Shown piece after piece: positions 24,015 through 44,072 of a DNA stretch of 46,241 nucleotides; position 1 is the stretch's first letter, and each line of letters opens with the position of its first letter. Below the pieces are notes generated by a model. It was not told the DNA's origin. It did not search any database and saw nothing but the letters and a program-made list of their open reading frames with translations. The DNA comes from an uncultured Dorea sp. (GTDB lineage Bacteria > Bacillota > Clostridia > Lachnospirales > Lachnospiraceae): NCBI GenBank assembly GCA_947063855.1, contig CAMSTW010000021.1:1-46241 (forward strand). Direction: 5' to 3'. Made by a program: the position numbers and the translations under genes.

Positions 24015-24021
24015 TATTGCT

Positions 24022-24051
24022 ATCATAGCATTTTCACTAAGTTTTTGTCAA
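24022..24051 (-). promoter_or_regulatory. promoter of the opp operon
   Basis: Minus strand: TTGACA (24051-24046), 18-bp spacer, TATGAT (24027-24022). The -35 is consensus. The 5' leader would be about 80 nt. Confidence 0.75.
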
Positions 24052-24099
24052 CAAGATTGTGCGTTTATGTGAAATTGTTCCATTTTCCGTTTTTTTTTA

Positions 24100-24128
24100 T
24101 TTCAAAAATGCTCATTATCCAATATAAT
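24100..24128 (+). promoter_or_regulatory. promoter of the molybdenum hydroxylase operon
   Basis: TTTCAA/TTCAAA (24100-24106) with 16-17 bp to TATAAT (24123-24128), 40 bp upstream of the start codon. The -10 is consensus and the -35 weak. It is divergent from the opp promoter with about 50 bp between the two -35 elements. Confidence 0.55.
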
Positions 24129-24167
24129 AGAGATAAAAGAAACCGATACAGGAGGAGGGAATCAGTG

Positions 24168-26453: not shown

Positions 26454-26558
26454 CGAATACAGCACCCTAAGGGGACGGGCAGATTGTGGGAATGAGTTTT
26501 CGGACAGTTTGGCTGGGGCGTGCAGATGGCGCAGGAGAGAAGAAGGAGGTTAAAACAT

Positions 26559-27446
26559 ATGTATGACATAAAAGCACTTTACGAGGCCGAGAGTGTGGAG
26601 CATGCAGTCGCTCTGCTTGTGGAGCACCCGGAAGCACAGATCATTGCAGGCGGAAGTGATATTCTGGTAAAGATGCGGGAAGGTAAGTGTGCGGGAAAAG
26701 AGCTTGTCAGTATCTATGGGCTTGATGAGATGCGCGGCGTAAGCTTCGAGGCAGACGGGGCGATTCGTATCGGATCTCTTACCAGCTTCTCCCATATTAC
26801 CGGAGATCCCATCATTCAGGAGCATATCCGTGTGTTGGGAGAGGCAGTCGATATGGTGGGCGGACCGCAGATCCGCAATATCGGGACGATCGGGGGAAAT
26901 ACCTGTAACGGTGTGACTTCCGCGGATTCTGCTTCTACACTTTTTGCGTGGGATGCAGTCGTAGAGATAACCGGGCCGGAAGGGGTGAGGAGAATCCCGA
27001 TCCAGGATTTCTATATCAGAGCAGGAGTCGTGGATCTGAAGCCGGGAGAGCTGCAGACGGCGATCCTTATTCCGAAGAAGGCTTATGAGGGATATCAGGG
27101 GCATTATATGAAGTATGCCATGAGAAATGCCATGGACATCGCCACTACGGGATGTTCGGTGAATGTGAAATTATCTGAGGATAAGAAGGTGATGGAGGAT
27201 GTCCGGATTGCCTACGGTGTTGCCGGGCCGGTGCCCATGCGTGCGTCCGGGACAGAGGCGGCGGTAAAGGGGAGGACTGTGTCCGGGGAGAATGTGAAGA
27301 CATTTGCCGGGGCCGTACTGGAGGATATCCGTCCCCGTGACAGCTTCAGGGCGTCTAAGGAATTCAGGCAGCACATTGCGGTGGTACTGGCGGAGCGTGC
27401 ATTAAGGGAATCCATCCGTCTTGCGGGAGGTGAGGTTGATGAGTAG
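26559..27446 (+). CDS. xdhB: molybdenum hydroxylase, FAD-binding subunit
   Basis: This 295-residue subunit of the CoxM/XdhB type carries electrons between the Fe-S subunit and NAD+ or another acceptor. FAD contacts are AQIIAGGSDILVKMREG (26-42) and GGPQIRNIGTIGGNTCNG (101-118). The C-terminal CO-dehydrogenase flavoprotein domain starts after residue about 175. The start at 26559 has AAGGAGG 9 nt upstream. The gene overlaps the 2Fe-2S subunit gene by 8 bases. Confidence 0.92.
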   Translation: MYDIKALYEAESVEHAVALLVEHPEAQIIAGGSDILVKMREGKCAGKELVSIYGLDEMRGVSFEADGAIRIGSLTSFSHITGDPIIQEHIRVLGEAVDMVGGPQIRNIGTIGGNTCNGVTSADSASTLFAWDAVVEITGPEGVRRIPIQDFYIRAGVVDLKPGELQTAILIPKKAYEGYQGHYMKYAMRNAMDIATTGCSVNVKLSEDKKVMEDVRIAYGVAGPVPMRASGTEAAVKGRTVSGENVKTFAGAVLEDIRPRDSFRASKEFRQHIAVVLAERALRESIRLAGGEVDE

Positions 27447-27942
27447 ACAGTACAAGTTGGTATCCTGTACCATTAACGGGAAGCAGGTGGAGAAGATGGT
27501 TGACGTCCGCGCGTCGCTTACGGATATGCTGCGGGACGACTATCGTCTCACGAGCGTAAAGAGAGGCTGTGAGGTCGGAGAGTGCGGCGCCTGCAATGTG
27601 ATCATAGACGGGGAGTGTTTTAATTCCTGTATCTATCTGGCTGTGTGGGCGCAGGGAAAGGAGATTCTGACCCTGGAGGGGCTTGCCGGTCCGGACGGAG
27701 GGATCTCGGATATCCAGCAGGCGTTTATCGACGAAGCGGCAGTACAGTGCGGATTCTGTACCCCCGGCTTCATTATGAGCGCGGCGGCGATTCTGGAGGC
27801 AAAGAGAGAATTCACAGATGATGAGATCCGTAAACGGATGTCCGGAAATCTGTGCAGGTGTACGGGATACGAGAATATCTTCCGGGCGGTGAAAAAGACC
27901 ATGCTTCAAAGGCTGGGGAAGGAGAAAGAAGGGATTTTATGA
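27439..27942 (+). CDS. xdhC: molybdenum hydroxylase, 2Fe-2S subunit
   Basis: This 167-residue small subunit of the CoxS type has two 2Fe-2S domains: a plant-ferredoxin-like one with C44, C49, C52 and C64, and a helical one with C104, C107, C139 and C141 (CGFCTPG and CRCTGY motifs). The start at 27439 is chosen for GGGAGGTGAGG upstream and the usual length; a TTG at 27421 is less likely. The symbol follows the three-letter subunit order; it is not the XdhC maturation factor. It completes the Mo/FAD/FeS trimer. The stop overlaps the next start as ATGA. Confidence 0.92.
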
Positions 27943-28706
27943 ATTATTCAGAAATAGCAGGAAAGCAGTATCATATTCAAACAGGCAAAGGAGATGTGGG
28001 CAAGTATGTGATCCTGCCGGGCGACCCAAAGAGGTGCGCAAAGATTGCAAAATACTTTGACGATGCGAAGCTGATAGCGGACAACAGGGAATATGTCACC
28101 TATACGGGATATCTGGACGGAGTGAAGGTAAGTGTGACGTCCACCGGAATCGGCGGTCCGTCGGCAGCCATTGCGATGGAAGAGTTGGTAATGTCGGGAG
28201 CGGATACCTTTATACGGATCGGGACCTGCGGCGGTATGCAGACCAATGTGATGAGCGGTGATGTAGTGATTGCAAGCGGTGCGGTCAGAATGGAGGGGAC
28301 GAGCAGGGAATATGCGCCGATCGAGTATCCGGCAGTGCCCGATATCCAGGTTGTCAACGCCTTGATTCAAGCGGCAAAGAAGCTTGGGACGGATTATCAT
28401 GTAGGTGTTGTACAATGTAAGGATTCTTTCTATGGGCAGCATTCCCCGGAGACGAAGCCGGCCAGCTATGAGCTGCTTCATAAGTGGGAGGCATGGAAGC
28501 GGATGGGATGCCTTGCCTCGGAGATGGAGTCTGCGGCGCTGTTCATTGTTGCAGGCAGTCTGCGCGTCAGGGTGGGATCCTGCTTTCTGGTGGTCGCCAA
28601 TCAGGAAAGAGAGAAGGAAGGGCTTGACAACCCGGTTGTCCATGATACAGATATGGCGGTCCGGGTGGCGGTTGAGGCGCTTAGAACCCTGATTAAGGAA
28701 GAATAG
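27939..28706 (+). CDS. udp: uridine phosphorylase
   Basis: This 255-residue nucleoside phosphorylase (PNP/UDP family I) splits uridine and phosphate into uracil and ribose-1-phosphate. The phosphate-binding GDP element is at 28-30 in ILPGDPKRC, with [10 protein letters not shown] (69-78) and RIGTCGGM (93-100). The nucleobase-proximal [11 protein letters not shown] (161-171) is typical of the uridine group, and EMES (195-198) binds ribose. The start overlaps the stop of the 2Fe-2S gene by 4 nt (ATGA), so translation is coupled. Its place in the hydroxylase operon suggests nucleoside/nucleobase breakdown. A purine nucleoside activity cannot be excluded. Confidence 0.9.
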
Positions 28707-28945: not shown

Positions 28946-30382
28946 ATGAAGAGTAAAGATATGAGTTATTATGTGAAATCCGTAATCGGCCTTCTGTTCA
29001 TGTTTGGTTTTGGCCTGCTGCCTCCGATTGAACCATTGACGCCGCTGGGGATGCAGATTGCCGGCATCTTTATAGGTCTGATCTTTCTTTTGTGCCTGGT
29101 AGATATTGTATGGCCCAGTATGCTCGGTCTGATCGCTCTTGGAATGACGGAATACTGTTCGGTGGAGGAGGCGATCGCTTCCGGCTTCGGCAGTGAGCTG
29201 GTTTGGATGATGCTGATTATTCTGGTTCTGGCAGAAGCAATCAACTTAAGCGGACTTGGGGAAGTGATTGCACGCTGGCTGATCACAAGAAGATTTCTGA
29301 ATAAACGGCCCTTGCTGTTTACTTTTGTATATATTGTGGGACTGGGGTTATGTTCCCTGCTGGTATCATCGACCGCGGCGGTAATCATGGGATGGGTAAT
29401 CTTTTATGATATCGCGGATATGGTTGGATATAAGAAAGGCGAGCGGTACAGTACATTGATGATCTTAGGGACCTTCATGTCCTGTATCATGTATGAAGGA
29501 CTCTTCGCGTTCCAGAGCTGGTGGCTGGTGCTGGGAGAAACCTTCAGAGATATGACGGGATTCGGAATCAATTATGTGACTTATTTTATCATTGGTTTCA
29601 TCATAGAGACGCTGATCAACATCTTGTTCGTGCTGTCTATGAAATATGTGTTCAAATGTGATTTTGACAAACTGAACGAGGTGGATATCAAGAAACTGGA
29701 GGGCGAGGGAGAATTAAAGCTGAATTTCCTCCATAAGTTTTTCCTCCTGTGTTTTGGCATGATCGTCGCATATGTATTTGTCACGATCATCTGCCCGCCA
29801 GAGTGGCCCTTTATTGCCCTGCTGAATAAGATTACACAGTCTGGCTGGTTTGCGATTGTATTATGTCTTGCCATGATTGTCAGATGGAAGGAGAAGCCGG
29901 CATTGGATTTTGCTCAGGCTGCATCCACTGGATTGAGCTGGAATATCCTTATGATGTGTGCCGCTATCATTCCGGTTGCCAGGGCGCTGACGTCAGATGC
30001 GACAGGGATGAAGGAGATGCTCAATCATCTGCTCAGTCCGATCTTCTCGGGGATGCATCCGGTGGTATTCATCATCACGCTGATCATCATGATGATGATT
30101 CTGACGAATGTGGGAAGTAACATGGCCACGGGCGTAGTACTGATGACGGTCATCATACCCTTCGTGGGAGACTATTATTTCTCCCCTGCGCTGGTAGGCA
30201 TGATTATCATCTTCGTGGCGACGATGGGGTTCATACTTCCGGGTTCCTCCGGAATGGCGCCATACTTGTACGGAAATGACTGGATCCAGGTCAGGGATAT
30301 CTATCGATATGGATTATTCTACTGCCTGCTGTTCTTAATCTGTTCTGTTCCGGTGTATCTGGCCGCCAGCTTTATCATCTGA
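28946..30382 (+). CDS. SLC13/DASS-type anion transporter
   Basis: This 478-residue, very hydrophobic transporter has about 11-12 helices. The pattern fits the divalent-anion:Na+ symporter (SLC13, CitT/SdcS) family. The two inverted repeat halves each carry an SNT-like substrate/Na+ site: LVSSTAAVIMG (about 132-142) and ILTNVGSNMATGVV (about 385-398). The second half keeps GFILPGSSGMAPY before the last helices. It probably imports a di- or tricarboxylate or similar anion. AAGGAGAATACTAG precedes the ATG, and the gene is convergent with the LysR gene. It is a likely uptake step for the pathway encoded from 31468 on; this role is inferred from position. Confidence 0.8.
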   Translation: MKSKDMSYYVKSVIGLLFMFGFGLLPPIEPLTPLGMQIAGIFIGLIFLLCLVDIVWPSMLGLIALGMTEYCSVEEAIASGFGSELVWMMLIILVLAEAINLSGLGEVIARWLITRRFLNKRPLLFTFVYIVGLGLCSLLVSSTAAVIMGWVIFYDIADMVGYKKGERYSTLMILGTFMSCIMYEGLFAFQSWWLVLGETFRDMTGFGINYVTYFIIGFIIETLINILFVLSMKYVFKCDFDKLNEVDIKKLEGEGELKLNFLHKFFLLCFGMIVAYVFVTIICPPEWPFIALLNKITQSGWFAIVLCLAMIVRWKEKPALDFAQAASTGLSWNILMMCAAIIPVARALTSDATGMKEMLNHLLSPIFSGMHPVVFIITLIIMMMILTNVGSNMATGVVLMTVIIPFVGDYYFSPALVGMIIIFVATMGFILPGSSGMAPYLYGNDWIQVRDIYRYGLFYCLLFLICSVPVYLAASFII

Positions 30383-30394
30383 CAGGATGCCGGC

Positions 30395-30425
30395 GCCGGG
30401 CGTTACCGGATAGAAAAGCGGCCGG
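30395..30425. terminator. weak hairpin between convergent SLC13 and LysR genes
   Basis: ATGCCGGC and GCCGGCGT can pair around the 30400-30420 stretch, giving a GC-rich hairpin without a clear T-run. It may limit read-through between the convergent genes. Confidence 0.35.
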
Positions 30426-30427
30426 CG

Positions 30428-31360
30428 TCATATGGAATCCGAATGGATAGCAGAAAAGAAGCTGTGAATCTCCTGCATCAGCAGGTTTTCCTGGATACTC
30501 AGTCCGGAGGAGTCGTATACCATGAACAGTGTAAGCGAAGTGTGGAAACCGGTAACTTCAAGGAGCTTAAGCCTTGCGGAGGTTACCAGGGGATCCTGAT
30601 ATACGGCGAATGCGGGCGCGATCATCACCTTGTCCGGATCGTCCACAAGAACCTGCTTGGCAACCTCCATATTGCTGAGTACCGTGAAGAGCCTGAACTT
30701 GTGGATGATGCTGCCGATGGGTTTGTCCTGCGGGCTGGGATAGTTGTGATGCAGCAGAAGGTGCTTGTGGAGCAGCTCGTCTACATGGACGCTTCCCCGG
30801 TCTGCAAACTCAGAGGCGGCAGATACCATGGCGAAGAACCGGTCGTTATAGAGCGGCTCGATGCAGATGTTCCCGTTCTTTGCAGACAGTGCATGAAACT
30901 GGTTGGGGTAGTCTGTAGATTCGGCGCCGATCACGATACTGGCTGTGCGGTTGTTGAAGCAGCTGTGCATATCTTCATAGCCGATCTCATAGATGTGCAG
31001 GTGGATATTGCGGTGCTTCTTAGACCAGATCTTCACGAGATGACGGGAGAGCGCGTAGGTTCCCGACGGAAAGATTCCGAGATTGATGATCTGACGCTGC
31101 TGGCTGTTATCCGAGCAGAGATAGTGAAGCTCGTCATTCTTGGCGAGAATATCCTTCATCAGACGGATGGCCTGCTCACCGTCAGGCGTAAGGAGAGTCC
31201 CCTTATTGGTCCGGCGGAAGATCTGGATATTCAGTTCGGCTTCGATGGAGTTGATAATGGCGCTCAAACCGGTCTGGCTGATGTAAAGCTTCTTTGCGGC
31301 AGTGGAAATGGATTTGCAGCGGGCAACTTCAATTAAGAATTGTAAATGATCAATACGCAT
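30428..31360 (-). CDS. LysR family transcriptional regulator
   Basis: This 310-residue regulator has an N-terminal winged helix (about 1-60) in the classical LysR pattern, with AAKKLYISQTGLSAIINSIE as recognition region and IFRRTNKGTLLTPDGEQ as the wing. The C-terminal periplasmic-binding-like effector domain covers about 90-300. It is divergent from the mmgE/prpD gene with 107 bp between starts, the standard arrangement for a LysR protein controlling its neighbour. The likely inducer is the substrate or an intermediate of the 28946-39047 pathway, probably a carboxylate. GAGG lies just before the ATG. Confidence 0.92.
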   Translation of the reverse strand: MRIDHLQFLIEVARCKSISTAAKKLYISQTGLSAIINSIEAELNIQIFRRTNKGTLLTPDGEQAIRLMKDILAKNDELHYLCSDNSQQRQIINLGIFPSGTYALSRHLVKIWSKKHRNIHLHIYEIGYEDMHSCFNNRTASIVIGAESTDYPNQFHALSAKNGNICIEPLYNDRFFAMVSAASEFADRGSVHVDELLHKHLLLHHNYPSPQDKPIGSIIHKFRLFTVLSNMEVAKQVLVDDPDKVMIAPAFAVYQDPLVTSARLKLLEVTGFHTSLTLFMVYDSSGLSIQENLLMQEIHSFFSAIHSDSI

Positions 31361-31467
31361 AAGGATACCTCAAACAAACAGCAGATGAAACGTACAAAGC
31401 AACAGGCCCTGACGGGCGTATATAACAAGTTCAATAAAAATATAAACCCATAAAAAGGAGACTGAAA

Positions 31468-32856
31468 ATGAAGAAATATACCAAGATTATAGCAGACTAT
31501 TTAACGAATCTCAAGTACGAAGATATTCCGGGGGAAGTCATCGAGCGTGCGAAATTAGTTACATTACATACGGTGGGAGCGGCAATAGCAGCAGTGAAGA
31601 CCGAGGCCGGACAGAATATCATCGACGTGGCCAAGACGCTTGGAGCGGGAGGGCGCGAGGCAACGATCATCGGCGACGGCACGAAGGTAAGTGTAGGCAA
31701 TGCAGTCCTGGCAGGCGGAACCCTGGCAGACCTTCTGGACTGGGAGGACTGCAGCTGGACCGGACACCCGTCGGCGGGCGCCGTGCCGACCGGGCTTGCG
31801 GTTGCGGAGGCTTATCATAAGAGCGGGAAGGATTATCTGACCGCATTGGTAGGAGGGTATGACGTATATCAGAGAGTCGCCATGGCGGTACAGCCCTCCC
31901 CGAAGCGTTTTGAGGAGGGCTGGGGGCTTCACTGCTGGCAGATCTTTGCGCCGGCCTCTGTCACCGGTAAGCTTCTTGGGATAGAAGGCGATAAGATGAA
32001 CCAGCTTCTGGGAGCGGCGGGGCATATGACGCCCATAGCCATTAACCTGATTCATTCAAGCTTCAGTGATTTCTATCACTATACACATGGCCTTACGGCT
32101 CAGTCGGCAGTTGAATGCGCGCTGATTACAGAGAAGGGGATATCGACGCTGACGGGCGTGCTGGAAGAAGATACCGGCTATTACTTCGGCGTGTCTGACC
32201 AGTGCGACTGGGACTGGTATGACAGGGAGCTTGGAAGCCGTCATATGATCATGGAGCTGATGCTTAAGAACTGGCCGGTCAATATGTGGATCCAGACTCC
32301 GATGGATATGATACATGCTATTAAGACGAAGCATGACATTGACCCGGATCAGATTCAGTTGATTGAAGTCTCTCCGTTTATTCCGGAGAGAAGTGAGGAC
32401 AGTCCGGCAGACGGCTATGATTCCCTGGTTGCCGCTCAGTTCAGCATCCCCTTCTGTATGGCGATGTATCTGAAAGGACCAGAGGTTGGGACGGCGTGGC
32501 TGGATGAGAAGTATCTGAAGGATCCGGAGATTTTAAAGATGGCTTCCCGGGTAAAAGGAGTCGGGGAGACCTCCCTGATCAGCAGCAATTTTGATACCTT
32601 CCAGAAGGGGTCTTATCCGTCCTATACGATGAAGGTAACGATGAAGGATGGGACGGTCTATGAGGAAGCGGTACAGTTCCCCAAAGGACATCCAAAGAAT
32701 CCATATACAAGGGAAGAGTGTATCGACTGCTTCAAGCTGGCGACCAGGGGACTTATGAGTGAGAAGAAGCAGGATGAACTCTGTGATTTCATCCTGAACA
32801 GGCTGGAGACCGTTGAGGATATGGAAGAAATCGGGAGATATCTGGCGGTTATTTAG
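31468..32856 (+). CDS. MmgE/PrpD family protein
   Basis: This 462-residue protein matches the MmgE/PrpD fold: an all-helical N-terminal domain (1 to about 260) and a smaller C-terminal domain. The active-site region is LADLLDWEDCSWTGHPSAGA (85-104), with a second region around GWGLHCWQIFAP. Known members include 2-methylcitrate dehydratase, cis-aconitate decarboxylase and iminodisuccinate epimerase, so a hydroxy/unsaturated or N-carboxyalkyl dicarboxylate is a plausible substrate. AAAAGGAG precedes the ATG. It is the first gene downstream of the LysR divergent region, and opine-type dehydrogenase and racemase genes follow. The specific reaction is not predictable. Confidence 0.85.
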   Translation: MKKYTKIIADYLTNLKYEDIPGEVIERAKLVTLHTVGAAIAAVKTEAGQNIIDVAKTLGAGGREATIIGDGTKVSVGNAVLAGGTLADLLDWEDCSWTGHPSAGAVPTGLAVAEAYHKSGKDYLTALVGGYDVYQRVAMAVQPSPKRFEEGWGLHCWQIFAPASVTGKLLGIEGDKMNQLLGAAGHMTPIAINLIHSSFSDFYHYTHGLTAQSAVECALITEKGISTLTGVLEEDTGYYFGVSDQCDWDWYDRELGSRHMIMELMLKNWPVNMWIQTPMDMIHAIKTKHDIDPDQIQLIEVSPFIPERSEDSPADGYDSLVAAQFSIPFCMAMYLKGPEVGTAWLDEKYLKDPEILKMASRVKGVGETSLISSNFDTFQKGSYPSYTMKVTMKDGTVYEEAVQFPKGHPKNPYTREECIDCFKLATRGLMSEKKQDELCDFILNRLETVEDMEEIGRYLAVI

Positions 32857-32872
32857 ACATAATCATTCATGA

Positions 32873-32942
32873 TTTTACCGATATGATATTAAAACTGTAA
32901 AGCCATACATTTTCAGGAAAACTGCAATTCATATCGGTAAAA
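32873..32942. repeat. 14-bp perfect inverted repeat with 42-base spacer
   Basis: TTTTACCGATATGA (32873-32886) and TCATATCGGTAAAA (32929-32942) are exact complements in the gap between the prpD-like and opine-dehydrogenase-like genes. An alternative inner pairing (CATACA with TGTATG near 32903 and 32946) also exists. It may be an RNA switch, a processing hairpin or a pair of operator half-sites. Confidence 0.6.
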
Positions 32943-32987
32943 GTCTGTATGATTGTGTATAGACGGAGAAAGGAAAGAGGAAAGAAA

Positions 32988-34055
32988 ATGATTAAAAATA
33001 TAACAATAATCGGAGGCGGCTCTACGGGTCATGCGGCGGCGGCATTCCTGACAGGCAGAGGATTCGAAGTTGTGCTCTGCGATCATGAAGGATTTGAAAA
33101 AGAATTAAATGATATAGAGGAAAATGGAGGCATCCTCTTAAGAGGACGGGCCGGCAGGGGGATCTACAAGATTGCCGGCGTGACGCATGATTTCGGGGAG
33201 GCTGTCGGACGCGCACAACTGATCCTTGTCTGTGTACCTGCGGCAAGACATCCGGAAATTGCCGGACGGATGGCGCCTTATATGAAGGCGGGACAGAGTG
33301 TGCTGATCCTGCCGGGGAATCTTGGTTCCTTTATTTTCCGGGATGTCTTTAAGGAACATCAGGCGCCGGAGGATGTGATCATAGCAGAGATGGAAGGGAA
33401 CTTATGCCCATGCCGTCTGACGGCCCCGGCGGAGGTAACTGTGGGGCTTCCTATCCGGGCCAAGAAGGTGGCGGCTCTGCCGGGATCGAAAACGGCTGAA
33501 TTCATGAAGCGTAATGAAGGCGTCCTCGACTTCATCGCGAATAAACATGTTCTGGAAGGTGCATTGCTGTCAGATAATTATGTATTACATATCGGAACGA
33601 CACTTCTGGCGTCCAGCACCATAGATGAGATGGGTGAGGAATTCATCCTGTTCCAGCATGGACTTACGGATGCGGCCGTCTGCTGCACGGAAGCAATCCG
33701 GCAGGAGAGGATCCGCCTGCTGGCGGGACTTGGAATGGAGGAGCGGGACAGCGCGACAGAGTTTTTCGAGGAACTTAGGGACTGGAAGAATCATCCGGAA
33801 TATTCCGTATTCAGGACGTTGAAGGGACCGGACAGGCTGAAGCACCGTTATATAGAAGAGGACGCGGCCGCATGTGCTTCCATGGCGCTTTCCTGCGCGG
33901 CAAGACTGGGAATCGAGATGCCTGTTCTGAAGTCTGTGGTTACACTGGCGTCTGCGGTGAACCGGACGGATTATTATGGGACGGGAAGAACGCTTGAGAA
34001 TGCGGGATATGGTATGGATATGACCATGGATGAGATCATTGCGCAGTTAACGTAA
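32988..34055 (+). CDS. NAD/NADP octopine/nopaline dehydrogenase family protein
   Basis: This 355-residue protein has an N-terminal Rossmann fold with ITIIGGGSTGHAAAAFL (6-21) and a helical C-terminal octopine-dehydrogenase-type domain. The family includes opine, octopine and tauropine dehydrogenases, which reversibly join a 2-oxo acid to an amino acid with NAD(P)H, and related ketopantoate-reductase-like enzymes. The start at 32988 is preceded by AAAGGAAAGAGGAAAG; an in-frame start 13 codons upstream is less likely. The downstream neighbour is a racemase. With the MmgE/PrpD gene this suggests metabolism of an amino- or imino-dicarboxylate, which is an inference. Confidence 0.82.
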   Translation: MIKNITIIGGGSTGHAAAAFLTGRGFEVVLCDHEGFEKELNDIEENGGILLRGRAGRGIYKIAGVTHDFGEAVGRAQLILVCVPAARHPEIAGRMAPYMKAGQSVLILPGNLGSFIFRDVFKEHQAPEDVIIAEMEGNLCPCRLTAPAEVTVGLPIRAKKVAALPGSKTAEFMKRNEGVLDFIANKHVLEGALLSDNYVLHIGTTLLASSTIDEMGEEFILFQHGLTDAAVCCTEAIRQERIRLLAGLGMEERDSATEFFEELRDWKNHPEYSVFRTLKGPDRLKHRYIEEDAAACASMALSCAARLGIEMPVLKSVVTLASAVNRTDYYGTGRTLENAGYGMDMTMDEIIAQLT

Positions 34056-34129
34056 TGGAGCAATGCTGTACTAGTACAAAAATAACGATAGATGAGATTG
34101 TCTCATAGATTAGCAAGGAGGACGAAGAT

Positions 34130-34855
34130 ATGCTTTATAATTGGAGAGCAATGATCGGAGTGATTGCTCCAACGACAGGCGTTGCGATTGAAACAGATTT
34201 CCACAGATTTGCCCCGGAAGGTGTTGCGGTAGTGACCAACCGGATTCCCTTTTCCGGGAATCCTTCACCGGAAGAACTGATGGATATGGTAGAGTGCCTG
34301 GAGGGCTCTGCGAAGATTTTCGCGGATAATCTGCCCTTTGATGTTGTAACCTTTGGATGTACGTCAGGAAGCCTGGTAGGGGGAAGCGGGTTTGATAAGA
34401 AGTGTGCCGAGACGATTGAGCGGGTCTGCGGATACCCGGGACTTACGACCAGTACTTCCCTGCTGGATGCATTTGCCGCACTGGGAGTGTCCAATGCGGC
34501 GGTGGTGACGCCTTATCCGGATGACACCAATGAACTGGAGAAGCAGTTTCTGGAGAACAACGGCGTCCATGTGACAACGATACAGGGGATGACGTCGAAG
34601 CGGTGTACGCTGGATGAGCTGAGCGACCGTCCTTACGATATCTACCGGCATGTGAAGGCGCTTGACCTGACAGGGGCGGATTGTATCTTCATCAGCTGTA
34701 CCGGGATGAATGTGCTGGATATCATCTCAACCATCGAGACGGATTTCGCGCTTCCGGTTCTTACCAGTAATCAGGTGACTCTGTGGGGAGCGCTGAGGAA
34801 GGCGAGGGTAGGAGACAAGATCCCTTATCTTGGCAAACTTTTTACACAATATTAG
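34130..34855 (+). CDS. Asp/Glu racemase superfamily protein (maleate isomerase/arylmalonate decarboxylase type)
   Basis: This 241-residue protein has the pseudo-symmetric two-domain fold of this superfamily. The two active-site cysteines are C77 in VTFGCTSGSL and C190 in FISCTGMN. The N-terminal IGVIAPTTG and VVTPYPDDTN stretches resemble maleate cis-trans isomerase and arylmalonate decarboxylase more than amino acid racemases. The likely role is isomerisation, racemisation or decarboxylation of a carboxylic acid, in line with the SLC13, PrpD-like and opine-type neighbours. GCAAGGAGGACG precedes the ATG. The stop codon is inside a 41-bp tandem duplication. Confidence 0.85.
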   Translation: MLYNWRAMIGVIAPTTGVAIETDFHRFAPEGVAVVTNRIPFSGNPSPEELMDMVECLEGSAKIFADNLPFDVVTFGCTSGSLVGGSGFDKKCAETIERVCGYPGLTTSTSLLDAFAALGVSNAAVVTPYPDDTNELEKQFLENNGVHVTTIQGMTSKRCTLDELSDRPYDIYRHVKALDLTGADCIFISCTGMNVLDIISTIETDFALPVLTSNQVTLWGALRKARVGDKIPYLGKLFTQY

Positions 34856-34925
34856 GCTGACGGTGCGCGTACGGTAAGGACTGTACACGATATTAGGCAG
34901 ACGGCGCGTGTACGGTAAGGAATGA
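34844..34925 (+). repeat. 41-bp tandem duplication spanning the racemase stop codon
   Basis: 34844-34884 and 34885-34925 are about 80% identical. The unit begins ACACAATATTAGGC, contains the gene's last codons with the TAG and ends in GTACGGTAAGGA. The second copy carries a decayed, untranslated version of the gene tail. Confidence 0.9.
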
Positions 34926-34967
34926 AGTATGCAAAGCTGCAATAGATGATAAATGCGAGGAGAATTT

Positions 34968-37106
34968 ATGATGTCAGAAATAGATGAATTGACGAAGGCA
35001 AAGATTCCAAGTGCAGATAATGGAATCGAATTGAAGAGGACCTTGTGCGATATCTGCTGTCCGGGTATGCACTGCGGGGTGAACGCCTATGTGAAGGATG
35101 GGAAGATTGTCAAGATAGAAGGTACGAAGGAACATCCCCGCAATCACGGGAAACTCTGCACCAAAGGGGCGGCGGGCCGCCAGTATATATACCGCGAAGA
35201 CCGGCTTAAGACGCCGCTTAAGAGGGTTGGCGAGCGGGGAGAAGGGAAGTTCGAACCGGTCTCCTGGGAGGAGGCGTACCGGACCATCCGGGATAAATTG
35301 TTCAAGGTAAGGGATACTTACGGAGCCGACAGCGTGGCGTTCTTCTCAGGTTATACCAAATGGTACAGGCAGTATCTGCACCGTTTTGCGTATTCCTTTG
35401 GAAGCATCAACTATGGAACCGAATGCAGCACCTGCTTTAAGGCCAGTGAGATGGCGTGGGAGGCGACGGTGGGACGGAATTCCGATCCGGATATGGAGAA
35501 TTCCAATGTAATCCTGGGTTTTGCATTGAATGGATTCCACTCAAATCATCTGATGTCTGCCAGACTTCTGAAACTTAGAGAGCAGGGGAAGAAATTTATT
35601 ATCATTGATCCCAGGAAGACGCCGGCGACACAGAAGCTTGCAGATATCCACCTGCAGCTTAAGCCGGGTACGGATGGCGCGCTGGCGCTTGGAATGGCGA
35701 ACCTGATCATTGCGAACGACTGGCATGATAAAGAATATATCGAGAAATATACCTATGGATTCGAAGAATATGCGGACTATGTGAAACAGTTCGATCTGGA
35801 TACGACTGCGAGAATCACGGGACTTCGGAAGGACGATATCTACGAGGCCGCGAAGCTGTATGCGACCGGCGGACCGGCGTCTATTACGGAGACGTCGTGC
35901 TCTGTTACACATCACACCAATGGTTTCCAGAATTACAGGGCGATGATCTGCCTGAATGGACTGACCGGGAATTTCGACCGGCCGGGAGGGCAGATCCCGG
36001 AGAAATCCACCTTCTATGATATGCCGGCAGGTTATCATATGTACGAGCATGAATATTATCTGGATGTACAGCCGGACCGGAAGGCAAAGGCAATCGGCTG
36101 CCGGAAATATCCGCTCTGGAACAAGTTCATGAATGAATTCCAGGCGATGGATCTGTCCAGACAGATACTGGAAGGGACGCCGTACCCGGTCAGGGCCGTT
36201 TACGGCGCGGGGATGAACGCCAAGATGTTTCCGGATACGAGAAAGATGTATGAAGCGCTTAAGAGTCTGGATTTCTTTGTGGATGTCGATCTGTTTATGA
36301 CAGATACGGCAAAATATGCGGATATTGTCCTTCCGGCATGCACTTCATATGAAAGAGGAGAGTTCAAGGCCTATATGGGAGGATATGCCGCATTTACCAA
36401 ACCGGTGATCGAACCGCTCTATGAATCGAAGAGCGATGTACAGATTCTAAAGGAGCTGGCAGACGTCATGGAGCTTGACGACCCGCTGTTAAGAGAAGGA
36501 TATGAAGCGGAGATCAAATATATGATCCGTGATCTGAGCGTTACGATCGAGGACATGAAGGCAAGTGAATTCCCCATAAAGGTTCCGGAGGCGCGGGAGG
36601 TTGTGCCGGGTGAATTCACGGCAAACGGCATGAATACGGTGAGCGGGAAATTCGAGTTCTATTCCAATTACATCGCAGAATTCAAGGACCAGGGACTATC
36701 TCCGATTCCTACATATAAAGAAACACTGGATGATGAAGGGATGGATGAGAAAGAATATCCCTACATCCTGGTGACCGGCTCGAGGCTTCCGAACGCCATA
36801 CATTCCAGGATCCATGGTCTGGCCTGGACAAGAAGCCTCAGGAAGGATGCCATGGTAGATCTGAATATGGAAGATGCAAAGGAGCTTGGTATCAGACAGG
36901 GAGATCTGGTAGAGATACAGACAATCACCGGGAAGATACGGATGAAAGCAAATCCTTCGGTGAAGATCCGTAAAGGGGATGTGCAGTTGTACCATGGATA
37001 TGGGGAGGCTAACGCGAACGATCTGATCGGCAGTACACATACCGACCCGTACAGCGGATTCCCCGGGTTTAAGTCAAGCAGATGCAGGATTACCCGGGTG
37101 GTGTAA
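34968..37106 (+). CDS. molybdopterin oxidoreductase catalytic subunit (Mo/W-bisMGD, Fe-S)
   Basis: This 712-residue enzyme belongs to the DMSO reductase superfamily. The N-terminal 4Fe-4S site uses C27, C30/C31, C36 and C64 (CDICCPGMHC...KLCTKG). The Mo-ligand position falls in YGTECSTCFKAS; C156 in the STC motif is the probable Mo ligand, as in the polysulfide/thiosulfate reductase and acetylene hydratase groups. The C-terminal domain has GSRLPNAIHSRIHGL and the cap at LYHGYGEANANDLIG. No twin-arginine signal is present, so it works in the cytoplasm. GAGGAG lies before ATG 34968. It is followed by FAD and ferredoxin-like partners and by the Moco operon. The substrate is unknown; a reductive or hydrating reaction on the carboxylate handled upstream is the main idea. 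Confidence 0.88.
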   Translation: MMSEIDELTKAKIPSADNGIELKRTLCDICCPGMHCGVNAYVKDGKIVKIEGTKEHPRNHGKLCTKGAAGRQYIYREDRLKTPLKRVGERGEGKFEPVSWEEAYRTIRDKLFKVRDTYGADSVAFFSGYTKWYRQYLHRFAYSFGSINYGTECSTCFKASEMAWEATVGRNSDPDMENSNVILGFALNGFHSNHLMSARLLKLREQGKKFIIIDPRKTPATQKLADIHLQLKPGTDGALALGMANLIIANDWHDKEYIEKYTYGFEEYADYVKQFDLDTTARITGLRKDDIYEAAKLYATGGPASITETSCSVTHHTNGFQNYRAMICLNGLTGNFDRPGGQIPEKSTFYDMPAGYHMYEHEYYLDVQPDRKAKAIGCRKYPLWNKFMNEFQAMDLSRQILEGTPYPVRAVYGAGMNAKMFPDTRKMYEALKSLDFFVDVDLFMTDTAKYADIVLPACTSYERGEFKAYMGGYAAFTKPVIEPLYESKSDVQILKELADVMELDDPLLREGYEAEIKYMIRDLSVTIEDMKASEFPIKVPEAREVVPGEFTANGMNTVSGKFEFYSNYIAEFKDQGLSPIPTYKETLDDEGMDEKEYPYILVTGSRLPNAIHSRIHGLAWTRSLRKDAMVDLNMEDAKELGIRQGDLVEIQTITGKIRMKANPSVKIRKGDVQLYHGYGEANANDLIGSTHTDPYSGFPGFKSSRCRITRVV

Positions 37107-37140
37107 GTTATACGGTGGTTACTGCCCTGGGGAGAGGATG

Positions 37141-37169
37141 TCTTCACAGCAGCTATTTTGCTGTGGAGA
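37141..37169 (+). other. intergenic hairpin downstream of the Mo enzyme
   Basis: TCTTCACAGCA pairs with TGCTGTGGAGA (one mismatch) around a 7-base loop, in the 118-bp gap before the FAD protein. It lacks a T-run, so it is more likely mRNA processing or stability than termination. Confidence 0.4.
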
Positions 37170-37224
37170 TGTACCAGCCTGCGTGTGTACTTAGCTGAGG
37201 GAAGGAGAAAGGAGAAGAGGACGA

Positions 37225-38490
37225 TTGAAACAGAAAACGGCAGTCGTAGGGTTTGGCTGTGCCGGATACCACGGCGTTAAGGCAATGCGTGAGCATGGGT
37301 ATAACGGGGAGATCGACGTATATACAGATTCACTGTGGGCGCCGGCGAATCCTATGCTGACAACCTACTACATATATGGAAAGCTTCCCAAAGAAGCGAC
37401 GCGTCCGTTCGGCACATTGGATGAGCTTGCAGAAAAATATGAGTTTCATACGGTGAACGGGCAGGCGCAGAAGGTATTGTCAGAAGAGAAAAGCATCCGG
37501 ATGAAGGATGGACGGATTGAAAGATATGACCAGATTCTGATCGCAACGGGAGCGAGAGCATTTCTCCCTCCGGTTGAGGGACTGGACTGTAAGAATGTAT
37601 TTCCTATGAGGACGATGGAGGACGCCGGGCGTGTGAAAAAGGTTCTTGAGGAAGAGGAGATTCACAGTGCGGTCGTGGTGGGCGCCTCCATGGTGGGAAT
37701 CAAGCTTGTGGAATTATTCCATGCAAGAGGTATCAAATGTACGCTGGCAGATATGGCGCCGGGGATCTTCCCGATCGCCGCAGTGCCGTGTATCGCATCA
37801 GAGATTGAGCGCCGGCTGAAAGAGAAAGGAGTTGATCTTGCATTTTCCAGAGCTTTACAGAGGATAGAGGAAGCAGACGGAAGGCGGCAGGTAGTATTTG
37901 CCGGCGGTGAATGGATTTCCTGTGATCTGGTGATGATGTGTATCGGCACGAGAGCGAATACACAGCTTGCCGATGAGAAGCTTCGTGTGAACCGCGGAAT
38001 CGTGGTGGATGGGCAGATGAGGACGAATATGCCGGATATCTACTGCGCGGGTGACTGTAGTGAAGGGACGAATCTTCAGACCAAGGAGACGCAGATCATT
38101 GGTATCTGGGATAATGCGGCGAAGCAGGGCAGGACGGCGGGGGCGAATATGGCCGGCGTCCGGACGGTTTATCAGGGAAATATGCTCCATAACATCACTC
38201 ATTTCATGGGAATGGATTTTATCGGCTATGGCGATGTCAGAAGTGAAGGCCGGGAGTATCTCTATGAGAACAGAGAGCTTGGACAGAAGTTCTTCCTCCG
38301 TATGGGAGATGCGGGGCCGGTATGCATGAATTTCCTGGATTCCTACAAAGCGAGCGGAGCGCTGAAATCCTATATGCTCCGGAAGATAAATGGAAATGCA
38401 CAGACTCTGAGCCCTGTCGAACGGGTACGGATGATCCGTGAAGGGATACCGGAAGATTTGACAGAGCTTCTGATGAAAGACCAGGGATGA
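37225..38490 (+). CDS. FAD/NAD(P)-dependent oxidoreductase (pyridine nucleotide-disulfide type)
   Basis: This 421-residue flavoprotein has an FAD Rossmann motif VVGFGCAGYHG (7-17) and a second dinucleotide motif VVVGASMVGIK (150-160). The FAD-ring contact is MPDIYCAGDCSEG (269-281). There is no redox CxxxxC pair, so it is closest to NirB-like or rubredoxin-reductase-like NADH oxidoreductases. It starts with TTG at 37225, with AAGGAGAAGAGG upstream. It is probably the electron entry from NAD(P)H to the 4Fe-4S protein and Mo subunit, which flank it. The C-terminal about 110 residues are a family extension of unknown role. Confidence 0.85.
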   Translation: MKQKTAVVGFGCAGYHGVKAMREHGYNGEIDVYTDSLWAPANPMLTTYYIYGKLPKEATRPFGTLDELAEKYEFHTVNGQAQKVLSEEKSIRMKDGRIERYDQILIATGARAFLPPVEGLDCKNVFPMRTMEDAGRVKKVLEEEEIHSAVVVGASMVGIKLVELFHARGIKCTLADMAPGIFPIAAVPCIASEIERRLKEKGVDLAFSRALQRIEEADGRRQVVFAGGEWISCDLVMMCIGTRANTQLADEKLRVNRGIVVDGQMRTNMPDIYCAGDCSEGTNLQTKETQIIGIWDNAAKQGRTAGANMAGVRTVYQGNMLHNITHFMGMDFIGYGDVRSEGREYLYENRELGQKFFLRMGDAGPVCMNFLDSYKASGALKSYMLRKINGNAQTLSPVERVRMIREGIPEDLTELLMKDQG

Positions 38491-38540
38491 GACAGAATTT
38501 TGACAGAGTTTGATTTTTTAATGTAAAACAGATAGGAGAT

Positions 38541-39047
38541 ATGATGGGAAAGATTATAGACCTTGATATTCAGAAATGTTCTGCCTGCGGCGCATGTGCC
38601 GTGGCGTGTATGGACCAGAATGACCTGGATCTGTCGGAGGGGGTATCCCCCTTCCGGGTGGTATGCGATCTTGAGGACGAGGACGGAGAATTCCAGTACT
38701 ATTCAATTGCATGTTTTCACTGTGAAGATGCGCCCTGTATTACGGCGTGTCCGTGTAACTGCCTGCGTAAGGATAAAGAGACCGGATTCACGGTTTATGA
38801 TAATACGAACTGTATCGGCTGTCACAGCTGTGCCATGGCCTGCCCCTTTGGCGCGCTAAGTTACCGGGGAGACGGGAAGATGGTGAAATGTGACGGCTGT
38901 GCGGCCAGAGTAAAGCAGGGGCTTGAACCGGCATGTGTCAATAACTGTCCGACAGGGGCGTTGCGGTGTATCGAAGAACGGGAACTGAAAGATGTGAAAG
39001 TGAAGCGCTCCTTAAAGAAGATGATGGCGGCGCTGGATACAAATTAG
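38541..39047 (+). CDS. four-cluster 4Fe-4S electron-transfer protein
   Basis: This 168-residue protein resembles the HycB/DmsB/NrfC type. Sixteen cysteines form four 4Fe-4S sites: C13/16/19 with C136-type partner, C58/61/66/70, C91/94/97/101 and C117/120/132 with C23-type partner, in the usual crossed order. It is cytoplasmic, with no signal peptide. The start is ATG 38541 or 38544 after TAGGAGAT. It would carry electrons between the FAD protein upstream and the Mo subunit. No membrane anchor gene (NrfD or cytochrome type) follows, so the complex is probably soluble. Confidence 0.9.
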   Translation: MMGKIIDLDIQKCSACGACAVACMDQNDLDLSEGVSPFRVVCDLEDEDGEFQYYSIACFHCEDAPCITACPCNCLRKDKETGFTVYDNTNCIGCHSCAMACPFGALSYRGDGKMVKCDGCAARVKQGLEPACVNNCPTGALRCIEERELKDVKVKRSLKKMMAALDTN

Positions 39048-39099
39048 GGATTGAAAAAGAAGTCGTAAACGAATATAATTAACATTAATAATTGTTCTT

Positions 39100-39224
39100 T
39101 GAGCGAAAGCATCTAAGTCATAGAGGATATGGTGCTAAGCCGGGATGAGATCTTCATCCCCGGGGTTCAGATGGAAACGTCCGGGCCTTCCCGCGGAACC
39201 GGCAGGTAATCCGCATTGAAAAAA
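39100..39224 (+). ncRNA. molybdenum cofactor (Moco) riboswitch, probable
   Basis: The 299-bp gap before mobA contains a compact folded region. The pieces include GCTAAGCCGGGATGA...TCATCCCCGG (hairpin 39139-39162), CAGATGGAAACGTCCGGGCC and TTCCCGCGGAACCGGCAGG...TCCGC. The order AGCCGGG / CCCCGG / CCGGGCC / CCCGC follows what I recall of the Moco RNA motif upstream of E. coli moaA. It precedes an operon for cofactor synthesis, as the known elements do. A covariance-model search (Rfam MOCO_RNA_motif) would settle it. Confidence 0.75.
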
Positions 39225-39259
39225 AGAACACGAAGCAGCCATATTGTGTTTATGATTTG

Positions 39260-39305
39260 AAAGCAGTAAGGGGACTTTGTGTCTTTTTACTGCTTTTTGT
39301 TGTTT
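39260..39305 (+). terminator. riboswitch expression-platform terminator
   Basis: AAAGCAGTAAGGGGAC pairs with GTCTTTTTACTGCTTT (16 bp with G-U pairs) around the loop TTTGT, followed by TTTGTTGTTT. It lies between the aptamer and the mobA start at 39347, so termination under cofactor excess is the likely mode of control. Confidence 0.85.
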
Positions 39306-39346: not shown

Positions 39347-40069
39347 ATGCAGGCAGAGGGATTGATTCTGGCAGGAGGCCAAAGTACAAGGATGGGCGGC
39401 CGTCATAAGGGAAGCCTTACGTATAGAGACGAGACCTTTACGCATCATCTTGTAAGGGAGCTGAAAAGGGGAGTTTCATGCGTAAGGCTGTCATACGGGC
39501 AAGAAGTAAAGGATGAAGGGATAGAATGTCCGGTCGTGATGGATATCTACCCGGGATGCGGTCCGATCGGGGGAATCTACGCGGGTCTTAGAGCCTGTGA
39601 GAGCGAATGGATGCTGGCGGCGGCCTGCGATATGCCTCTGATGAAGATAGAGATGTATTGCTGTCTGATGGACATGCTTGGTCGGAAAGGAGAGGAGATC
39701 TTGGCATACGATGGGGCGGTTCCCGTGACAGGCAGCAGGATTCATCCGCTGGCGGCCATCTATCGTGCGAGGAAGCCGGTGAACAAAGAAGCATCTGTGC
39801 TGACGGAACATATGATGGGCCGGCAGGTAGAGATTCAGGCAGACGCCGGGTCTGAATATCCGGTGAACCGGCCGGATATGGCTGATATATTAGAAGAACA
39901 GATCCAAAGAGGGAATTATCGTATCCGGGATGCTCTTAATCGTCTGAATATCCTCTATGTCGATGTGACGGGGAATAAAGGGTTCGAACAGATGCTTCGC
40001 AATATAAATACGATAGAAGAATACAGACAGTTAGAAATTCTCGCAAAAGCATGCTCATTGAAACAATAA
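39347..40069 (+). CDS. mobA: molybdenum cofactor guanylyltransferase MobA
   Basis: This 240-residue enzyme adds GMP to molybdopterin to form MGD, as needed by the bisMGD oxidoreductase at 34968. The nucleotide-binding signature is LILAGGQSTRMGGRHKG (6-22), followed by YPGCGPIGGIYAGL and AACDMPL. Start at ATG 39347 with AAGGGGGGAATC upstream; the open frame from 39257 would include the terminator hairpin and is not coding there. The C-terminal about 50 residues are longer than in minimal MobA. It is the first gene of the cofactor operon. Confidence 0.92.
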   Translation: MQAEGLILAGGQSTRMGGRHKGSLTYRDETFTHHLVRELKRGVSCVRLSYGQEVKDEGIECPVVMDIYPGCGPIGGIYAGLRACESEWMLAAACDMPLMKIEMYCCLMDMLGRKGEEILAYDGAVPVTGSRIHPLAAIYRARKPVNKEASVLTEHMMGRQVEIQADAGSEYPVNRPDMADILEEQIQRGNYRIRDALNRLNILYVDVTGNKGFEQMLRNINTIEEYRQLEILAKACSLKQ

Positions 40070-40095
40070 GGTTTACAGGGAAGGAGTATAAAGAA

Positions 40096-41307
40096 ATGGC
40101 AGAGAAGATATTAGATCTTAAGCAGGCGCAGGAATTGCTGCTTGAACGGGTGGAGAAGATTGAAGAGACCGAGAGCATCTCTCTGTGGGATGCGGTAGGC
40201 AGGGTTCTTTCTGAGGATGTATCTGCGGGGCATGACCAGCCGCCGTTCCCGCGGTCGCCCCTCGACGGGTATGCCGTGCGAAGCCAGGATATTGAGGGGG
40301 CTTCAAAGGAATCACCGGCAGAGCTTACCGTGATTGACGAGGTGGATGCAGGCCATGTAAGCGGGAAATGCGTAAGCCCGGGAACGGCCATCCGCATCAT
40401 GACCGGCGCGCCGATACCGGAAGGAGCAGACTGCATCGTCGGTCAGGAGGATACGGACTATGGCGAAGAGACGGTAGAGATCTACGAAGAGATCGGGGCG
40501 TATCAGAACTATTGCCATGCAGGCGAGGACTACAAAGAAGGTACGAGGATACTGACAGGAGGTATGGTATTGGGCTCTGTCGAAGCCGGGATTCTTGCCA
40601 GTCTTGGTCGGGAGAAGGTGTCGGTATACAGACGTCCAAGGATTGCCGTACTGACTACCGGAGATGAGACCGTACTCCCGGGAGAGGCGCTTGGGCCTGG
40701 AAAAATCTACGATTCCAACCTCTATACACTGGTAACGAGGTTTATATCCCTTGGAATGGATGTGGTGAGACGGGACCGCCTGGGCGACGATCTGGCGGCA
40801 GCGGCAGAGTGGATCCGGCTGGCGGCGCAGGAGGCGGATCTCATCGTTACGACAGGCGGGGTGTCCGTGGGCAAGAAGGATATCATGCACGAGGTGCTAA
40901 AGCTGCTTGGCTGTGAGCGGATTTTCTGGAGGATTGCCGTGAAGCCGGGAATGCCCACTTTATGCGCACAGTACCAGGGAACGCTTCTGATCTGTCTGTC
41001 GGGGAATCCTTTTGGGGCAGCGGTGAATCTGGAATTGCTGGTGCGGCCTCTTCTGGCGAAGCTTACCGGGAGAAAGGATTTGGAGCTTAAGAAAGTAACG
41101 GCAGTGGCAGAGAGTACATTTCCCAAGAAAAGCGGCGTGACCAGATATGTCCGGGCATATTATGAGGACGGGAAGGTACGGATTCCAGAAGGGTCTAATG
41201 CGTCGGGAATCTTAAGTTCCATGTGTGGATGCAACTGCCTGATTGAGATCCCGGCAGGAACATTGAGGGTTGACAGAGGAGATGAGGTATGGGTGATACT
41301 GTTGTGA
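40096..41307 (+). CDS. moeA: molybdopterin molybdotransferase MoeA
   Basis: This 403-residue protein inserts molybdate into adenylylated molybdopterin. It contains PPFPRSPLDGYAVRS in domain III, the MPT-binding fold with TTGDE, the TTGGVSVGKKD loop and the LSGNPFGA turn. A C-terminal domain (about 325-403) completes the gephyrin-type architecture. The start at 40096 follows GGGAAGGAGTATAAAG. It is separated from mobA by 26 bp, and its end overlaps mobB by about 19 bases. It serves both Mo enzymes of the window. Confidence 0.93.
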   Translation: MAEKILDLKQAQELLLERVEKIEETESISLWDAVGRVLSEDVSAGHDQPPFPRSPLDGYAVRSQDIEGASKESPAELTVIDEVDAGHVSGKCVSPGTAIRIMTGAPIPEGADCIVGQEDTDYGEETVEIYEEIGAYQNYCHAGEDYKEGTRILTGGMVLGSVEAGILASLGREKVSVYRRPRIAVLTTGDETVLPGEALGPGKIYDSNLYTLVTRFISLGMDVVRRDRLGDDLAAAAEWIRLAAQEADLIVTTGGVSVGKKDIMHEVLKLLGCERIFWRIAVKPGMPTLCAQYQGTLLICLSGNPFGAAVNLELLVRPLLAKLTGRKDLELKKVTAVAESTFPKKSGVTRYVRAYYEDGKVRIPEGSNASGILSSMCGCNCLIEIPAGTLRVDRGDEVWVILL

Positions 41308-41855
41308 AGATGGGAGAGATTGAGGAGGCTGGTGTGACGAGGGTTATCGCTGTCTGCGGAGTTAAGAATTCGGGGAAGACGACCTTGCTTGCAAGACTCG
41401 TAGAAGAACTTGTGAAGCGGGGGATGAAGGTGGCCGTCATCAAGCATGACGGACATGATTTTACCTGCGATATCGAAGGGACGGACAGCCATCGTCTGAA
41501 AGAGGCGGGAGCCTACGGGACGGCCGTATTTTCAGATTCCCGGATATTTGTCCACAAGACCGGAACCGGGGAGAGGGCGGAAGAACTGCTGGCGATGTTT
41601 CCCGAAGCCGATCTTATTTTCCTGGAGGGCATGAAGGACAGTACTTATCCGAAGATTGAGATTATACGGAAGGGAATATCAGGTATTCCTGTGTCGAATC
41701 CCCGGGGACGGTTTCTGATTGTGACGGATACGGACCGGGCGGAATATGAGGAAGAAGCAGTTGGGTTTGAAGACATAGAGCGGATAATCCATAAAATATT
41801 AATGCTGCCGGAGAATGGAGGTACGACAGGATATGAAAGAGATGAGAACCGTTGA
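41289..41855 (+). CDS. mobB: molybdopterin-guanine dinucleotide biosynthesis protein MobB
   Basis: This 188-residue GTP-binding P-loop protein has Walker A GVKNSGKTTL (24-33), the IKHDGHDF element and DADLIFLEGMKDS around Walker B. It assists MobA in MGD formation. The ribosome site lies within moeA's last codons, so translation is coupled to moeA. Its tail overlaps the next gene by about 23 bases. The exact start is not certain: an internal ATG eight residues in would also fit. Confidence 0.9.
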   Translation: MGDTVVKMGEIEEAGVTRVIAVCGVKNSGKTTLLARLVEELVKRGMKVAVIKHDGHDFTCDIEGTDSHRLKEAGAYGTAVFSDSRIFVHKTGTGERAEELLAMFPEADLIFLEGMKDSTYPKIEIIRKGISGIPVSNPRGRFLIVTDTDRAEYEEEAVGFEDIERIIHKILMLPENGGTTGYERDENR

Positions 41856-42930: not shown

Positions 42931-42931
42931 G

Positions 42932-44057: not shown

Positions 44058-44072
44058 AGGGAGAAGATAAAA

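Follow-up and report, generated by a model that had tools for sequence, protein, structure and literature searches.

A conserved LysR-linked gene set combining an opine-dehydrogenase-type enzyme with a molybdoenzyme of a distinct clade in an uncultured Dorea sp.

Gene content and organisation of the locus

The window analysed here is the whole 46,241-nucleotide stretch of contig CAMSTW010000021.1 (assembly GCA_947063855.1) from an uncultured Dorea sp. of the Lachnospiraceae, and the subject is a set of eight genes within it: an anion transporter, a LysR-family regulator, three putative carboxylate-converting enzymes and a three-gene complex around MopA, an enzyme of the molybdenum-bis(molybdopterin guanine dinucleotide) (Mo-bisMGD) type. 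The gene set is a real, conserved, LysR-linked unit, in which known families stand in a previously undescribed arrangement together with a distinct Mo enzyme clade. A first-pass annotation had assigned the eight genes from the sequence alone, and open reading frame (ORF) calls with Pfam and NCBIfam models confirmed both their positions and their families, as follows.

28946..30382, + strand: DASS/SLC13-type anion transporter (Pfam Na_sulph_symp, 65 bits; TIGR00785 under its cut-off)
30428..31360, - strand: LysR-family regulator, divergent from mmgE (Pfam HTH_1 and LysR_substrate)
31361..31467, no strand: lysR/mmgE divergent intergenic region, poorly conserved among five relatives
31468..32856, + strand: MmgE/PrpD-family epimerase/isomerase-like enzyme (MmgE_PrpD N and C domains)
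32949..34055, + strand: octopine/nopaline-type (opine) dehydrogenase, ODH (Pfam Octopine_DH; likely start Met at 32988)
34130..34855, + strand: AMD, two-Cys Asp/Glu racemase/maleate isomerase/EutA-type protein (Pfam Amdase, 83 bits)
34953..37106, + strand: MopA, Mo-bisMGD catalytic subunit (Molybdopterin, Molydop_binding and Fe4S4 domains; likely start 34968 or 34971)
37225..38490, + strand: FAD/NAD(P) oxidoreductase, fadR, PadH-like (Pyr_redox_2; best NCBIfam model PadH, under cut-off)
38541..39047, + strand: fesB, four-cluster 4Fe-4S electron-transfer subunit (Fer4_11, DmsB-like; four Cys clusters read from the sequence)

Comparison with relatives indicates that the true starts of ODH and MopA probably lie some codons inside the longest ORF. 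The first-pass annotation had the genes running in one direction from the LysR gap. This stands for the six plus-strand genes from mmgE to fesB (31468-39047), which are separated by gaps of 50-118 bases; terminator-like plus-strand sites were absent from these gaps, all those seen lying either within genes or beyond the operon, and weak promoter-like matches occur within amd and mopA. It does not stand for the DASS transporter gene, which is convergent to lysR and is therefore not on the transcript of the plus-strand operon. The proposed link to LysR was borne out, with lysR adjoining mmgE divergently in all five close relatives examined (L051-L055, 58-64% identity). The T-N11-A pattern was uninformative for locating a LysR box, giving 2930 matches against 2953 expected, and no box was resolved.

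Conservation of the gene set and phylogeny of MopA

Named genomes were scanned with an alignment of four MopA rows, which yielded 62 loci whose MopA is 43-87% identical to that of the window, except for two at 30%. Flanks of up to 10 kb were fetched, and genes were called with a codon-usage caller, which can miss genes, and then clustered; several of the 62 loci are cut by contig ends. The mmgE/amd/odh module (type A) is present in 24 of the 62 loci and complete in 20 of these 24, the four that fall short of the full trio being L057, L063, L064 and L096, some of them cut by contig ends. With the trio kept together in 20/62 loci, a chance neighbourhood was rejected and the conserved association that the first-pass annotation expected was found. 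A PatB-family lyase (type B) occurs in another 20 loci, none carries both types and 18 carry neither. The neighbours of type A loci include DASS (16 of 24), OCD family (16) and DctM (2) genes and no amino acid permease, whilst the 20 type B loci have no DASS or OCD genes and instead amino acid permease (11), GntR (11) and EamA (9) genes. Among the type A loci 14 have at least two mmgE genes and 10 have two amd genes, and fadR and fesB are each directly next to mop, in the same orientation, in 48/62 loci. Both types are found at separate loci in four genomes, 1_7_47_FAA (L059, L074), Flavonifractor An92 (L073, L082), A85_79 (L054, L085) and SUG478 (L056, and L104 with L075), and MopA relatives are also present in cultured Anaerotruncus colihominis DSM 17241, [Clostridium] asparagiforme DSM 15981, Mediterraneibacter massiliensis and Faecalibacterium prausnitzii.

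The type A and type B contexts fall largely into two MopA clades. A tree of 70 rows was made by a quick method; its branches are long and its outgroup is not confined to one side of a branch. On it, one branch (SH-aLRT 97) unites 24 type A and three unassigned rows and another (SH-aLRT 99, drawn open) unites 19 type B and eight unassigned rows, the type A row L096 lying outside the main type A branch. L107 (no called mop ORF) and L037-L039 (second fetches of L054, L078 and L106) were left out. The type A label requires five changes on this tree against a shuffled mean of 20.3, and the type B label three against 16.8, with 0/500 shuffles as low in either case.

A search of the class returned 4/391 genomes, the window's own included, at E 1e-190, a threshold that one of its own paralogues also passes, so that the count is only a rough sign of rarity; in two further families 1/32 and 8/71 genomes had matches. 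In the latter family (seven of eight of one genus) mop and fesB occur with no fadR adjoining in those genomes opened, and at these loci (L122, L132-L137) they lie beside a large protein of ~1060 amino acids (an SNF2-type helicase in L122). The first-pass annotation knew of no described pathway with this set of genes, and none was found in open-access papers, subscription papers being mostly outside the coverage of our search.

MopA groups with no characterised Mo enzyme

MopA is a member of the DMSO reductase superfamily, with Molybdopterin and Molydop_binding domains for a bis-MGD cofactor and a 4Fe-4S cluster. The cluster cysteines C32, C35, C41 and C69 and the ligand C161 are invariant in 36/36 rows, and the active-site signature, SGYxKWYR with HHxNGxQNYRA, is distinct from that of known relatives. 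In its bis-MGD fold, its single 4Fe-4S cluster and the Cys in its metal-ligand column MopA matches acetylene hydratase, polysulfide/thiosulfate reductase and the formate dehydrogenases, but it differs from them in this signature and in that the residues tested from those families are absent from the window protein. The best NCBIfam models, Fdh-alpha and PhsA, are both far under cut-off, MopA reaching 350 of the 666 bits needed for formate dehydrogenase alpha (TIGR01591) and 324 of the 694 needed for PhsA, and Cys161 is followed by Phe162, not by His as in formate dehydrogenases. The active-site residues His145 and Arg332 of PsrA align with Gly133 and Ser315 and are not kept. Asp13 of acetylene hydratase, its catalytic residue, follows the second cluster Cys and aligns with Gly38 of the window protein (L089 and L102 have Asp there); the cluster motif of the window protein is also two residues longer. 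Judged by family models and fold comparisons, MopA groups with no characterised enzyme and represents a putative new clade; membership of a family of unrelated known substrate, which the first-pass annotation had named as counting against its proposal, was not found. A paralogue of the Mo enzyme (L004; G000 contig C6, 59109-60578) has one in-frame TGA and is perhaps a selenocysteine formate dehydrogenase.

The predicted opine dehydrogenase and its isomerase-like partners

ODH scores 75.6 bits against Pfam Octopine_DH (cut-off 30), and profile comparison places it closest to N-(1-D-carboxyethyl)-L-norvaline dehydrogenase (CENDH; PDB 1bg6), which the family profile matches at E 3.4e-56 over positions 4-350 of 354. 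It resembles CENDH and octopine dehydrogenase over its full length, with the NAD-binding glycines kept, but is ~30% identical to them or less and is embedded in a Mo enzyme operon. Residues H214, R300 and D305 align with CENDH His202, Arg292 and Asp297, which we assume to have functional roles in that enzyme, and are invariant in 22/22 aligned members. On its fold and kept residues, the best reading of ODH is a predicted NAD(P)-dependent opine dehydrogenase of the CENDH type. A search of 299 genomes of the family gave ODH matches in 112, mostly to short Rossmann stretches; nine places in eight genomes exceeded 150 bits, and four of these genomes (the window's own, G262, G298 and G219) have the Mo cassette. 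Plasmid records gave ODH matches in 13 cases at 25-30% identity, the two opened having no MmgE, AMD or Mo enzyme neighbours, and no ODH relative was found in viral contigs. Distant ODH relatives (29-33%) lie beside a LysR gene and a gene for a protein of 177-178 amino acids in L043, L044 and L045, with no Mo enzyme in the fetched stretch.

MmgE has the MmgE/PrpD fold and is nearest by fold to iminodisuccinate epimerase (PDB 2hp0/2hp3), although it is only 19% identical to that enzyme and no iminodisuccinate lyase was seen nearby. Its H100 aligns with His99, one of the two bases, with Tyr145, given for the epimerase in PMC7347537, and is invariant in 27/27 selected rows, one aberrant ORF among 42 rows lacking it. 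Against one PrpD (2-methylcitrate dehydratase) equivalog model MmgE scores 37.9 bits, compared with a cut-off of 950. AMD belongs to the superfamily of maleate isomerase, EutA and arylmalonate decarboxylase, the last of which has a single catalytic Cys. Cys77 and Cys190 of AMD are present in 37/37 rows, and as both catalytic-type cysteines are there AMD would be of the racemase/isomerase type and not a one-Cys decarboxylase. It differs from named members in scoring under the cut-offs for arylmalonate decarboxylase (88.4 of 225 bits) and EutA (TIGR02990; 105.4 of 318 bits) and in lacking the Asn with which the fold of maleate isomerase begins.

Other front ends of the Mo complex

The type B lyase is a PatB cysteine-S-conjugate beta-lyase: the 19 members given, of 21 such ORFs, all match TIGR04350 at 1e-60 or better, and the one scored against its cut-off passes (384.6 vs 340 bits). 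At L121 fadR-mop-fesB is flanked by a tryptophanase-family lyase (730.6 bits, cut-off 285; the tryptophanase and tyrosine phenol-lyase equivalogs were not reached), a UbiD decarboxylase and an NhaC-like transporter, and at the basal MopA loci L084 and L123 only TRAP transporter components lie beside the Mo complex. The occurrence of the same Mo complex with unrelated front ends (PatB, tryptophanase-family) means that the Mo step is not confined to the present carboxylate pathway. Conversely, the neighbours of ODH in L041 and L042 are DASS, an SDH_alpha protein and, in place of the Mo complex, a flavoprotein resembling fumarate reductase, and L040 has no Mo enzyme but places ODH beside MmgE, a Dpp-type ABC transporter and an M20 amidohydrolase. 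The SDH_alpha protein has no NCBIfam match in L041 and matches L-serine ammonia-lyase under cut-off in L042; the M20 amidohydrolases of L037 and L040 belong to TIGR01891, and more M20-family members hold the same position in L054, L055 and L104. Since front ends and reductases interchange across loci, a module logic of 'ODH + isomerase or lyase + reductase' is suggested, with the Mo complex as the reductase.

A proposed pathway and its alternatives

The gene set probably imports and cleaves an unusual N- or S-bearing carboxylic acid and passes the electrons to a Mo enzyme of a new branch, one that many gut bacteria carry. From the observed genes, their order, conservation, family placement and kept catalytic residues we infer the substrate, the direction of every step, the compound reduced by MopA and the LysR effector. 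The reading we tentatively favour, while holding it to be somewhat short of an even chance, is that the cell imports and breaks down a substituted dicarboxylate, the likeliest being an opine-like compound or imino-dicarboxylate, with the Mo enzyme as electron sink. The substrate would have two carboxylate-bearing carbons joined via nitrogen, on a succinate-type backbone; it would be sensed by LysR and its anion imported by the DASS transporter. MmgE and the two-Cys AMD, both cofactor-free, would shift protons at the carbons next to the carboxylates to give the stereoisomer accepted by ODH, and ODH would cleave the C-N bond with NAD+ and water, yielding NADH together with an amino acid and a 2-oxo acid. 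Electrons from NADH would then travel via the soluble FAD reductase and the Fe-S subunit to a cytosolic MopA, which would reduce an organic anion as the terminal electron sink, our first guess being the conversion of the 2-oxo acid from ODH to a 2-hydroxy acid. The redox balance would fit, one NADH being produced by ODH and one consumed by MopA.

It is also possible, though we put it forward with slightly more reserve, that MopA founds a new functional class of Mo enzyme in gut Bacillota, an NADH-fed cytosolic reductase of a 2-oxo acid or a C-N/C-S-linked carboxylate, a substrate class for which we know of no sequenced Mo enzyme. Interchangeable front ends would feed this common electron sink: in one lineage an opine-type dehydrogenase together with epimerases, in other lineages beta-lyases acting on C-S or C-C bonds.

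Several observations weigh against the dicarboxylate pathway. MopA is paired with a C-S beta-lyase in 20/62 loci, where no opine chemistry is evident, and ODH does not need this Mo enzyme, since the 20 kb fetched contain no MopA at five of its nine matches above 150 bits (G217 twice, G046, G141 and G247). Tyr145 of iminodisuccinate epimerase aligns with Phe148 of MmgE, in a region where the alignment is uncertain, so that the second base is not matched, and Asp201 stands in place of the active-site Lys of aconitate decarboxylase. An OCD partner was not found in the window genome, the assembly of which is 84% complete (best match 25% identity), and the Mo complex could work in the oxidative direction. 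The reduction of a 2-oxo acid by a Mo enzyme has as its precedent one title cited by PMC6365974, on the (2R)-hydroxycarboxylate-viologen oxidoreductase of Proteus. That protein is reportedly a Mo/Fe-S enzyme acting on 2-oxo and 2-hydroxy acids, and its likeness to MopA is one of description. The first-pass scheme of epimerisation, C-N oxidation and a Mo sink agrees with the family evidence and with the ODH/DASS module swap of L041 and L042.

The main rival, unlikely on present evidence but a live alternative, has S-conjugated carboxylates (e.g. succinated cysteine or thioether acids) epimerised by MmgE and AMD and cleaved at the C-S or C-N bond by ODH or a beta-lyase, with MopA reducing the sulfur-bearing product or a sulfoxide. 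It owes its standing to the sulfur-amino-acid relatives of PatB, the tryptophanase-type lyase of L121 and the M20 amidohydrolases, and the closeness of MopA to polysulfide reductase and the SDH_alpha protein of L041 and L042 point the same way. A further link is YxeQ, a PrpD-family protein. In PMC9706529 the yxe locus for succinocysteine breakdown includes YxeQ as a protein without an assigned function. Type A loci, however, have no C-S lyase and their ODH and OCD families act on C-N bonds, the polysulfide reductase residues His145 and Arg332 are missing from MopA, and a desulfidase reading of the SDH_alpha protein is unsupported given its absent or sub-cut-off NCBIfam matches.

We regard as improbable that the complex runs oxidatively, MopA, the Fe-S subunit and the FAD reductase oxidising a (2R)-hydroxy acid or similar anion to yield NADH, and ODH/OCD acting reductively or forming amines as an opine-making sink. 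The FAD reductase could run both ways, and the presence of only a TRAP transporter beside the complex in the basal loci L084 and L123 means that the imported acid may itself be the Mo substrate; opine formation, on the other hand, needs no importer or LysR pairing, and in L041 and L042 the Mo complex gives way to a flavoprotein of the fumarate-reductase type. There is little to commend an acetylene hydratase-like role for MopA, as a hydratase or hydrolytic lyase that its redox partners only keep reduced, given Gly38 at the catalytic position, the longer cluster motif and a dedicated FAD reductase and Fe-S subunit each adjoining mop in most loci. Least credible is that MopA is a formate dehydrogenase or thiosulfate reductase of the usual kind, placed beside a carboxylate operon by happenstance: Fdh-alpha and PhsA are the best models and four basal relatives (L084, L096, L098 and L099) do have His after the ligand Cys, but the scores are far too low, the window has Phe162 and the association is kept across Bacillota families.

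Among gut anaerobes, Eggerthella and Gordonibacter likewise have Mo-bisMGD reductases with organic substrates, the catechol dehydroxylases, and a 2024 review (PMC11574389) confines the known gut dehydroxylases to two Actinomycetota genera. The present set differs, as far as descriptions go, in its occurrence in Bacillota, its NAD(P)H-type flavoprotein and its opine or C-S lyase modules. If the dicarboxylate pathway is correct, many gut Bacillota would use dietary or host amino-acid adducts both as food and as electron acceptor, a previously unrecognised trait; organic-substrate Mo reductases would reach beyond the two genera that the same review names for dehydroxylases; and orphan MmgE/PrpD and opine-dehydrogenase genes would gain a functional context.

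Molybdenum cofactor riboswitch and neighbouring genes

A molybdenum cofactor (Moco) riboswitch (RF01055, 48.6 bits) lies at 39095-39229, 3' of fesB, with a promoter-like site 5' of it at 39051-39079 (11 of 12) and a terminator-like hairpin of 17 pairs at 39259-39297, between it and mobA, the start of which is more likely the ATG at 39347. The genes that follow (39347-45992) read as mobA-moeA-mobB-moeA2-moaA-MOSC/mog and then modA, names given by ORF reading. With this position, its own promoter-like site and the hairpin after it, the riboswitch was rejected as a regulator of the cassette, and its operon looks like a separate transcription unit. Among 22 relatives' loci scanned the riboswitch is present in L112, L068 and L104, and the order fesB-riboswitch-Moco genes recurs in the first two.

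Just upstream of the transporter, ORF reading gives xanthine-dehydrogenase-type large, FAD and 2Fe-2S subunit genes followed by a nucleoside-phosphorylase-like gene (24000-28706). The xanthine-dehydrogenase-type genes (24000-27942) were rejected as part of the pathway, matches occurring in 0/24 type A loci and only in the distant locus L108, of neither type. In L092-L095 (Solobacterium/Erysipelotrichaceae) fesB is followed 3' by a permease-like protein of 184-232 amino acids, a 166-amino-acid protein that matches Oxidored_molyb weakly and a 372-amino-acid protein, the last half of which is MobA-like. A Dpp/Opp-type ABC transporter operon, again by ORF reading, occupies the minus strand at 18292-23935, and several relatives of the Mo cassette have ABC genes like these as neighbours.

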